DNA from: Gammaproteobacteria bacterium
GTDB lineage: Bacteria; Pseudomonadota; Gammaproteobacteria; Pseudomonadales; Porticoccaceae
DNA length: 64,000 bases
Assembly: GCA_018069465.1 (NCBI GenBank)
Contig: JAGPUW010000022.1
Location: forward strand, 1 to 64,000
Reading direction: 5' to 3'
Positions 61,230 to 63,783 of this stretch are shown here, one piece after another (within the stretch, counting starts at the first letter, position 1; every line of letters begins with the position of its first letter). The notes beneath the pieces were generated by a model. It made no database searches. It was not told the origin of the DNA and was given only the letters and a program-made list of their open reading frames with translations. A program made the translations under genes and the position numbers.

Positions 61230-62354
61230 TTACACATTCACATTCAAGTTAAATAACTTTTTGACATTATCGTGAATACAGTTGTTTTGTTGCTCTAAAG
61301 TCAAGTGAGCCATTTGCTCATCGAGAATTCTTTGTGAATTCGGCCATGAGGCATCGGTGTGTGGATAGTCGTTGGCCCAGAGCAGGCAACCACTGTCGAC
61401 AACATCGAGATTCCTGTAAGCCGTTTCATCATCCTGGAAAGTGAAAGATACATTTTCGGCAATGTATTCACTCGGTGGACGGGTCAAATGACATTCAACC
61501 GCTGGCCCGAGGCGGGCCATAGCGTGGTCAGCACGATACTTGTAGTGAGGAATCCAACCAGCATCGCCTTCGGCAACAACCATTTTCAGCTTGGGGTTGC
61601 GTTCAAATACGCCGCCAAACAGGAACACACCCAGCACATCCTGAACGCCGCGAATAATGTTCATAAAGCCGTTAGCAGCATGGCCACGCTTAGGTGCCAA
61701 TACTTCTTTTACACCGCAATCATCAGAAGTCAGAATGTGGAAGCACATAGGCATATCCAAATCGACCGCACACTCCCACAGAGCGTCATAATCTTTGTGA
61801 TCGTAATCGGCATAGCCTGGACGGCCCGGCATCATCATGCCAACCATACCCTGAGCCTTAGCGCGCTTGACGTCGGCAATCGCTGAATCAACAGACAAAA
61901 CTGCAGACTGAGCCAGACCAAACAAACGATCGGGCTGAGCGCCACAGAAAGTTTCCAACCAACGATTATAAGCCTGCATACAGACATCTTTATACTCGAG
62001 ATCGGGATGACCACACATGATCATACCAACAGAAGCATAGATGATCTCAGCGCACACACCGTCCTGATCCTGTACTTCAGCACGGAAATCCGGGTTCCAG
62101 GCAGCATTGGGTAGCTCATCGAACTTGGCATTGCGATACTTGGGCAACTCAGCTGCAGGTACGCCAGCAGCGCCGAGCAGGGCCAGGGGAATAATGTCAT
62201 CGAGACCGGGAATGTTGAAAATAGAGCCCCCAGTTGGGCCATCTATTACGGTCGGTGCACGATCACGAAATTTAGGATCAATAAAATCAATATATGTGTT
62301 TGGCGGCTCAACAATGTGAGAGTCCGCTGAAATGCCTGGTTTACGAGTAGCCAT
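61230..62354 (-). CDS. Amidohydrolase (ACMSD-type, PF04909 family)
   Basis: 374-residue metal-dependent TIM-barrel protein. ISADSHIVEPP at the start holds the DxH-type ligand; MCFHILTSDD, VVAEGDAGWIPHYKYR and WANDYPHTDASWPNS supply the later metal and catalytic residues of the amidohydrolase_2 family. Relatives decarboxylate or hydrolyse aromatic-ring-derived acids; a natural-product or polyketide role is also known. GGAGGTTAC precedes the ATG. It is upstream of the propeller gene, with a terminator between. Confidence 0.9.
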   Translation of the reverse strand: MATRKPGISADSHIVEPPNTYIDFIDPKFRDRAPTVIDGPTGGSIFNIPGLDDIIPLALLGAAGVPAAELPKYRNAKFDELPNAAWNPDFRAEVQDQDGVCAEIIYASVGMIMCGHPDLEYKDVCMQAYNRWLETFCGAQPDRLFGLAQSAVLSVDSAIADVKRAKAQGMVGMMMPGRPGYADYDHKDYDALWECAVDLDMPMCFHILTSDDCGVKEVLAPKRGHAANGFMNIIRGVQDVLGVFLFGGVFERNPKLKMVVAEGDAGWIPHYKYRADHAMARLGPAVECHLTRPPSEYIAENVSFTFQDDETAYRNLDVVDSGCLLWANDYPHTDASWPNSQRILDEQMAHLTLEQQNNCIHDNVKKLFNLNVNV

Positions 62355-62688: not shown

Positions 62689-63783
62689 ATGCAAGAAAAT
62701 GAGAAACAGATCCTGATAGAGAACCTGCTTCACAGCATTCGCCAGCGCCCTGCGGCCTCGGCATCAGGTCTGGACCCGTCACTCGACGACACTGCCCTGG
62801 CTCAGCAGTTTTATGAGCTTATCAACGAAGCCACTGGCGACAATCACAAATCGGAACAAAAACAGGTGACGATTCTGCTTGCCGATTTACGCGGTTTCAG
62901 CGCCATGTCAGAGAAGCATACGGCGGAAGAATTGATCGACCTGCTGAATCGTTATTTCCACAAAATGAGTGAAATCATTCTCCATTACGGCGGCACCATC
63001 GACAAATTTATGGGCGATTCGGTGATGGCCCTGTTTGGTGCTCCCTCCAGCGGCGAGGATGATCTGGAGAGGGCTCTCGCCTGTGCGGTTGAAATGCAGC
63101 TGGCGATGAACGACGTTAACACCACCAATAATGCCCTGGGCCTGCCCAATATATACATGGGTATCGGCCTCAATACCGGCACCGTAGTGGCCGGCAATCT
63201 CGGCTCCAAACTGCACAGCGAATACACCGTTATCGGCAACGAAGTGAACCTGACCTCGCGGATTGAAGCCCACAGTTTGCGCGGGCAAATTATGCTCAGC
63301 GAGAGCACCTATGACCTGGCTGCAGAGTACGTGAGCGTGGGCACTATTAATGACGTGCTGGTGAAAGGACGCTCCAGGAGTGTCCGCCTCTATGAATTAC
63401 TATCGACAAGCCGCCCAAAACAACTGGATGTTCCGCAGCGCGAAATTCGTAAAAGCCCTCGCATCGCGGTCAATATGCCGCTTAATTTTCAGACCGTGGC
63501 CGGTAAAACGGTGCAGGCTGAAGAATACGAAGGGCGTATTAACAACATCAGTTATAACGGCATGATGGCCGTTATGCCCATGCCCATCCAGTCCAGTGCC
63601 GAAATTAAAATCCACTTTGCCCTGTCGATGATGTCCAACCAAACCAGCGAAGTGTATGCCAAAGTACTCCACGTGCAGGAACTAGATAAGCAATTTTACT
63701 GCCAGCTCGAATTTACTTTTATTGATGATGAAGCCCAGCGTGAGCTGAAAGAGTTTATCGACCGCATCATCGAGAGTAATTAA
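62689..63783 (+). CDS. Class III nucleotidyl cyclase fused to a PilZ domain
   Basis: 364 residues. A class III cyclase domain (about 55-230) has metal ligands D66 (LLADLRGF) and D110 (KFMGDS), K106 and T180 (EYTVIG) at the purine-binding positions of adenylate cyclases, and N187/R191 for the transition state. It should make cAMP. A C-terminal PilZ domain (about 240-355) has RxxxR at 244-248 and NxSxxG at 276-281, the c-di-GMP-binding motifs. No membrane part is seen. c-di-GMP control of cAMP synthesis is inferred from the fusion. Confidence 0.9.
   Translation: MQENEKQILIENLLHSIRQRPAASASGLDPSLDDTALAQQFYELINEATGDNHKSEQKQVTILLADLRGFSAMSEKHTAEELIDLLNRYFHKMSEIILHYGGTIDKFMGDSVMALFGAPSSGEDDLERALACAVEMQLAMNDVNTTNNALGLPNIYMGIGLNTGTVVAGNLGSKLHSEYTVIGNEVNLTSRIEAHSLRGQIMLSESTYDLAAEYVSVGTINDVLVKGRSRSVRLYELLSTSRPKQLDVPQREIRKSPRIAVNMPLNFQTVAGKTVQAEEYEGRINNISYNGMMAVMPMPIQSSAEIKIHFALSMMSNQTSEVYAKVLHVQELDKQFYCQLEFTFIDDEAQRELKEFIDRIIESN

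Follow-up and report, generated by a model that had tools for sequence, protein, structure and literature searches.

An adenylate cyclase fused to a PilZ domain as a candidate link between c-di-GMP and cAMP

c-di-GMP and cAMP are two global second messengers of bacteria and are often antagonistic. In Pseudomonas aeruginosa, high c-di-GMP reportedly lowers cAMP, and the route by which this happens was still unknown as of 2021 (passages of PMC8230467, which cites Almblad 2015). A direct link between a cyclic mononucleotide and c-di-GMP has been described for XC_0250 and XC_0249 of Xanthomonas; that link, however, runs in the opposite direction (cGMP raises c-di-GMP synthesis), involves two proteins, and has its cyclase fused to TPRs (passages of PMC3770947). 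A c-di-GMP receptor fused to a cyclase would be the simplest possible connection between c-di-GMP and cAMP, and one testable with a single purified protein.

Regarding the cyclase half of such a protein, the closest solved catalytic domain to the one analyzed here is that of the guanylyl cyclase Cya2 (2w01) of Synechocystis. It shares 45% identity and a target TM-score of 0.96 with our protein, but carries E, not K, at the purine selector, hence GTP. Closer in its selectors is CyaB from P. aeruginosa (3r5g), with a catalytic domain 39% identical over approximately 190 aligned columns and the same K/T pair; its solved structure, however, is the cyclase core, and full-length CyaB presumably has a membrane sensor part and no PilZ. 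As for the receptor half, the cellulose synthase BcsA offers the precedent of a PilZ-bearing enzyme under c-di-GMP control (passages of PMC7288161 and PMC10333796), and BcsA structures match our PilZ model, yet BcsA is a membrane glycosyltransferase and not a nucleotide cyclase. PilZ domains occur in 221 architectures in Pfam, with GGDEF, EAL and Peptidase_S8 given as examples of catalytic partners, and the passages of PMC7288161 that state this do not name a pairing with a cyclase.

Both domains and their chemistry are already known, and a link of this kind is not surprising in principle. Domain databases very likely contain the pairing already, though without comment. In the open-access full-text literature, judged by titles and the start of abstracts of the papers listed and with subscription papers and preprints outside its scope, no adenylate cyclase-PilZ (AC-PilZ) protein was found described. 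The same holds for the passages considered of PMC10333796, PMC7288161, PMC6416229, PMC3770947, PMC11139211 and PMC13232838, and of PMC11410210, PMC8230467, PMC7063779, PMC10745434 and PMC13075795. AC-PilZ proteins form a real and widespread family, which is apparently uncharacterised.

The AC-PilZ gene and its cyclase domain

The window analyzed here, the whole stretch of 64,000 nucleotides, has the AC-PilZ gene as its last complete large open reading frame. A reading made from the sequence alone had proposed an adenylate-cyclase-like domain fused to PilZ at 62689-63783, and both Pfam domains indeed score far above their cut-offs, with Guanylate_cyc (PF00211) matching residues 56-230 (E 1e-31, 110 bits against a cut-off of 21.9) and PilZ (PF07238) matching residues 253-358 (E 8.4e-12, 45.8 bits against 22.5). 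The PilZ tail is the sole input domain recognisable in the protein by Pfam. The features of the locus are the following:

62689..63783, + strand: AC-PilZ gene, 364 aa, stop codon included, ATG start (ORF list, Pfam, 7 of 7 genus genomes drawn)
62689..62853, + strand: N-terminal region, residues 1-55, predicted helices 3-18 and 34-49, poorly conserved
62854..63378, + strand: class III adenylate cyclase catalytic domain (predicted), residues 56-230, PF00211, nearest structures 2w01, 6fht and 3r5g
62884..62886, + strand: codon of D66, metal ligand, D in 71 of 71 AC-PilZ proteins
63004..63006, + strand: codon of K106, purine selector (ATP), K in 70 of 71, R in 1
63016..63018, + strand: codon of D110, metal ligand, D in 71 of 71
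63226..63228, + strand: codon of T180, purine selector, T in 68 of 71
63247..63261, + strand: codons of N187 to R191, transition-state residues, N187 in 69 of 71, R191 in 71 of 71
63409..63462, + strand: linker presumed to act as the c-di-GMP switch, residues 241-258, with R254xxxR258 at its end, both arginines in 71 of 71
63445..63762, + strand: PilZ domain, residues 253-358, PF07238, Foldseek top matches being PilZ structures, many with c-di-GMP
63544..63561, + strand: N286-I-S288-Y-N-G291, the [D/N]xSxxG motif, D/N286 in 71 of 71, S288 in 39 of 71, G291 in 71 of 71

The chosen ATG is supported by the MQEN start common to four genus rows of the alignment, and by the frame upstream of it, which is more variable in the five rows compared. 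That the product is a single soluble protein, as had been claimed, agrees with its hydropathy profile, in which the highest 19-residue Kyte-Doolittle mean is 1.03 and no membrane-like segment appears. The N-terminal region (residues 1-55), modelled with pLDDT values of 48-78 by blocks of ten, is a candidate dimer handle.

We then looked at the catalytic residues. Both metal ligands (D66 and D110) and the K/T purine selectors (K106 and T180) listed in the sequence-only reading are present, the selectors also being numbered correctly therein. D66 and D110 align with the metal aspartates of Cya2, CyaB and others, and the catalytic set is completed by the transition-state Asn and Arg, N187 and R191, which that reading did not mention. 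The three solved chains nearest by sequence, namely Cya2 (2w01), 6fht, which is a fusion, and CyaB of P. aeruginosa (3r5g), also take the first three places in a Foldseek search with the AlphaFold model, the best match being 2w01_B (E 1.1e-22, target TM-score 0.96), with the class III cyclase fold. The full model has a pLDDT of 84.1 and a pTM of 0.63, too low a value to rely on how the domains are placed relative to each other.

At the position of K106, an E is found in 2w01, titled guanylyl cyclase Cya2, and a K in 6fht, titled artificial phytochrome regulated adenylate/guanylate cyclase, while CyaB 3r5g has K and T at the positions of K106 and T180. The K/T(S) selector pair is that of class IIIb adenylate cyclases. 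As the window protein has this pair, ATP is its likely substrate, and we predict from the residues, with high confidence, that AC-PilZ is an ATP cyclase. A degenerate cyclase was also considered and rejected, all six catalytic residues being present in the window protein, and a guanylate cyclase is not favoured, given K106 at the purine selector.

The PilZ domain and the AC-PilZ family

The two PilZ motifs noted earlier, RxxxR and NxSxxG, were recovered as RKSPR at residues 254-258 and NISYNG at residues 286-291; the arginines had been numbered R244 and R248, ten too low, and are R254 and R258. The last cyclase strand spans residues 232-240 and is followed by approximately 18 residues before the PilZ barrel, with RxxxR lying within that linker. 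A separate model of residues 237-364 (pLDDT 86.9) has six strands and the PilZ barrel. Its best PDB matches by Foldseek are PilZ domains, the top six with c-di-GMP. The scores are moderate (query TM-score 0.54-0.60, best E 5.9e-5), and the matches include 4xrn and VCA0042 2rde, both with c-di-GMP, Alg44 4rt1, 5y6g, BcsA, MrkH and YcgR. Searching the PDB with the PilZ-part sequence gave either no match or two insignificant ones (E 0.48 and 0.93), and the fold search alone matched. In both ligand-free models, full-length and 237-364, the RxxxR stretch has low confidence, which would fit a loop that folds on its ligand. From its motifs, the PilZ domain is predicted, with a confidence only little below that for the cyclase activity, to bind c-di-GMP.

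A survey of the fusion elsewhere, suggested in the earlier reading, found it in full length in all seven genus genomes drawn (the window's own and six others, these at 89-93% identity) and in many, mostly proteobacterial, lineages. A chance fusion or an assembly joint was rejected on the grounds of this full-length presence in the genus and on many unrelated contigs. Comparing the six congener genes with the window gene, dN/dS (NG86) is 0.033-0.042 for the whole gene, 0.010-0.025 for the cyclase part, 0.016-0.042 for the PilZ part and 0.06-0.28 for the N-terminal region, these ratios being rough as dS is mostly above 1. Among the best 80 loci of 560 relatives, a scan that gives minimum lineage counts and favours full-length AC-PilZ proteins, gammaproteobacterial members come from Porticoccaceae, Spongiibacteraceae, Chromatiaceae, Thiodiazotropha and others, betaproteobacterial members from Curvibacter, Roseateles and Rhodoferax, and a few records carry the label Myxococcota, Planctomycetota or Cyanobium. 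Cultured carriers include Marichromatium gracile, Thiocystis minor and Aliikangiella marina. In an even draw of 369 class genomes, with at most five candidates scored per genome, five including the window's own (G000, G132, G406, G267 and G257) have a match reaching the last 5 of 357 model positions; AC-PilZ is not universal in the class. In a plasmid search (690 records), among the 10 matches listed, one covers at least 80% of the query (Rhizobium leguminosarum, 25% identity).

The alignment holds 85 proteins, namely those of the 80 loci and seven from other searches, minus L083 and L084, whose frame is broken in the record. Since some genomes occur in it under both G and L names, giving near-copies, a non-redundant set of 52 rows (<80% identity) was also used. 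Guanylate_cyc is present in 85 of the 85 aligned proteins and PilZ in 70 (Pfam, E up to 0.01). Position 106 is K or R in 71 proteins, which we took as the AC-PilZ set, all with R254 and R258; in the other 14 it is E in 13 and D in one, the second selector position being G in 12, T in one and A in one, and both PilZ arginines are found in L137 only.

Throughout the 71 AC-PilZ proteins, D66, D110, R191, R254, R258 and G291 are invariant, position 286 is always D or N, and all six catalytic residues are kept in 66. At position 288, 39 proteins have S, 31 have G and one has A, which leaves the whole [D/N]xSxxG motif in 39 of 71; the replacement of S288 took at least 10 changes on the tree. These replacements would count against assuming that every family member binds c-di-GMP; the window protein keeps the full second motif. 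In the 52 non-redundant members, R254, R258 and G291, all in c-di-GMP motifs, are the sole invariant positions of residues 241-364, a part in which the mean share of the commonest residue is 0.47 as compared to 0.65 in the cyclase part. Invariance of these three residues amid a variable PilZ part is what selection for c-di-GMP binding would leave.

On a tree of 105 cyclase domains, built by a quick search with SH-aLRT support only, the 71 AC-PilZ proteins fall on one side of a branch (SH-aLRT 96) and the AC-PilZ label changes once, against 28.9 times in shuffles; the other groups, tailed E-type cyclases and other class III cyclases, are mixed with each other. This widespread family on one side of a branch had been missed by the sequence-only reading.

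Several individual members deserve mention. In the metagenome bins labelled Klebsiella pneumoniae and Singulisphaera (L125 and L097), the AC-PilZ genes sit among betaproteobacterial or other proteobacterial sequences, and the labels are probably wrong. The gene on a contig of Cyanobium sp. T1B-Tous (L114:5716-6933) pairs with one from a Cellvibrionales bin, which would reflect either transfer or contamination. Two members (L040:1249-2574 and L095:2543-3859) start with a strongly hydrophobic segment, with 19-residue means of 2.53 and 2.72, and membrane-anchored versions of AC-PilZ may thus exist. Moreover, the Dasania protein (L093:5794-6918) has an odd catalytic set, with R at K106 and D at N187.

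Possible roles of the PilZ tail

Class III cyclases form their active sites between two chains. By analogy with the class, two AC-PilZ chains would dimerise through their cyclase domains to form the ATP sites, in which D66 and D110 would bind the metal, K106 and T180 select ATP, and N187 and R191 stabilise the transition state. c-di-GMP would bind the PilZ barrel through R254 and R258 of the linker and N286, S288 and G291 of the barrel; the linker would then fold onto the ligand and shift the PilZ domains relative to the cyclase dimer, switching cAMP output. Overall, we explain AC-PilZ as a soluble class III adenylate cyclase with its activity set by c-di-GMP, a reading to which we give a probability of roughly 0.7, and within it we think an allosteric effect of c-di-GMP on the cyclase likely. 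As to the sign of the effect, we lean slightly to activation by relief of autoinhibition, by analogy with BcsA, while inhibition would agree with the fall in cAMP at high c-di-GMP in P. aeruginosa.

The PilZ domain could instead set the location of the cyclase (pole, pilus or flagellar motor) or its contact with a partner, giving local cAMP with an unchanged turnover rate. PilZ proteins that work by protein contact are described, YcgR through protein-protein interaction and MapZ as an adaptor (passages of PMC10333796), and both folds are among the fold matches of our PilZ model. A free-standing adaptor would also be expected to keep no neighbour gene, and none was seen to stay beside the cyclase outside the genus.

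In the window, the upstream neighbour is a divergent amidohydrolase gene (61230-62354, - strand; Pfam), and downstream lies an SprA-related gene (PF12118, + strand), the reading frame of which starts from 63862, 78 bases after the cyclase stop, and continues beyond 64000; the cyclase and SprA-related genes possibly form a two-gene unit. Two genes away, on the other strand and just beyond the window end, is an EAL-HDOD gene (L031:9500-10708), another c-di-GMP-related gene near AC-PilZ. In tblastn searches of 80 contigs, many of which are short, making neighbour absence incomplete, the EAL-HDOD and amidohydrolase genes lie beside the cyclase in four of four congeners (L066-L069; the amidohydrolase match in L069 is split in three pieces) and the SprA-related gene in three of four, L069 being the exception, while outside the congeners there are weak amidohydrolase matches alone (L113 and L116, 26% identity). 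In addition, no family is shared by more than 4 of 68 flanking ORFs (of 121 called at 32 loci; Pfam, E up to 1e-5), the commonest being Response_reg, with one GGDEF among them. The AC-PilZ gene seems to travel alone, and its neighbourhood says little on its function. Against a role in location or partner contact stand the position of RxxxR directly behind the cyclase domain, where an intramolecular switch is expected, and the PilZ tail being the sole recognisable input domain; we consider this alternative unlikely.

It was also considered that the PilZ domain might have lost c-di-GMP binding and now act as a structural or dimerisation element, as is probably the case in guanylate-cyclase-type relatives. 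For these cousins, 17 tails were compared, E-type except for one D-type (L131, L132, L134-L138 and L140-L145, with L139, one of the 14 proteins lacking K/R, left out, and L041, L043, L044 and L045 added). Their hosts include cyanobacteria, Sorangium, Desulfobacterales and others, and several tailed E-type cyclases carry CHASE2, REC, HAMP or PAS parts. Both cyclase and tail are homologous to those of AC-PilZ: a profile comparison of 25 AC-PilZ PilZ domains with the 17 tails gave 99.3% and E 1.1e-20 over 127 columns (hhalign), and nine of the 17 tails match Pfam PilZ weakly (E up to 1), the best at 0.0033, below cut-off.

The tailed E-type cyclases differ from AC-PilZ, however, in that most are predicted to be of the GTP type and the c-di-GMP motifs are mostly gone from their tails, RxxxR being absent from 16 of 17 (L137 keeps it) and [D/N]x[S/G]xxG from 17 of 17. 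Purine type and c-di-GMP motif thus largely go together, an association that amounts to one tree split and not to independent events. These homologous tails speak for such a role, but R254, R258 and G291 are the sole invariant residues of the PilZ part in the 52 non-redundant K/T-type sequences, and we regard a purely structural tail in AC-PilZ as improbable. Slightly less probable still is a primary input of bicarbonate or another small ligand at the cyclase core, merely tuned by c-di-GMP, which would suit a class IIIb K/T pair as in P. aeruginosa CyaB, for which bicarbonate activation is reported, as are opposite changes of c-di-GMP and cAMP (passages of PMC8230467), but which is compatible with c-di-GMP gating anyway.

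cAMP and c-di-GMP genes in the genomes with AC-PilZ

Control of the AC-PilZ cyclase by c-di-GMP, the reading we prefer, was then considered together with the gene content of the genomes. In the window's own genome, an assembly 97.6% complete, in which a second cyclase could therefore be missing, the AC-PilZ protein is the only class III match (PF00211), and neither a class I cyclase (PF01295) nor a CYTH protein (PF01928, searched in that genome alone) was found; as controls, these models match 5, 1 and 11, respectively, of 14 known genomes. The absence of any other detectable adenylate cyclase in its own genome raises the interest of the gene, and had been missed by the sequence-only reading.

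The same genome has 26 GGDEF matches, 25 of them over cut-off, six PilZ matches and seven cNMP-binding matches, among them a CRP/Vfr orthologue (NF008732, 358 bits; Vfr 7ff8, E 1.6e-97). CRP is over cut-off in seven of seven genus genomes. A CpdA-like phosphodiesterase is likewise present in seven of seven (201-210 bits), its identity being unsure because these scores lie below the curated cut-off of 225 and the model matches 8 of 14 control genomes, E. coli alone over cut-off. From this gene content, c-di-GMP would be supplied by the 25 GGDEF proteins, its predicted makers, and cAMP would act through the CRP/Vfr orthologue and be removed by the CpdA-like phosphodiesterase. With AC-PilZ the only cyclase detected in this genome, the whole cAMP pool would be under the control of c-di-GMP.

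None of the six congeners has a class I cyclase; class III cyclases number one in each of four (G001, G003, G004 and G005) and two in each of the others (G002 and G006). In at least five of the seven genus genomes seen, the genus may therefore use a single-protein switch, in which one c-di-GMP-receptor enzyme makes cAMP and places the CRP/Vfr regulon under c-di-GMP, with AC-PilZ having dispersed over many proteobacterial lineages as a single family, and with the motifs lost from the tails of the guanylate-type cousins; for this wider picture we hold the odds to be about even. A receptor-cyclase fusion would explain how the two messengers are coordinated in symbionts, purple sulfur bacteria and many marine bacteria, and AC-PilZ could serve as a c-di-GMP-controlled cAMP source or as a laboratory reporter.

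The sole-cyclase situation does not hold in the seven carriers tested outside the genus. Counting the fusion, PF00211 matches number three in G013, six in G044, three in G046, three in G132, seven in G267, four in G257 and six in G406 (one of these six below cut-off), and a class I cyclase is present in four of the seven (G046, G132, G406 and G257). Within the genus, the second class III cyclase of one congener is adjoined by a second, divergent CRP-like gene (G002:C93:38070-39438), which suggests a separate cAMP unit in that genome.
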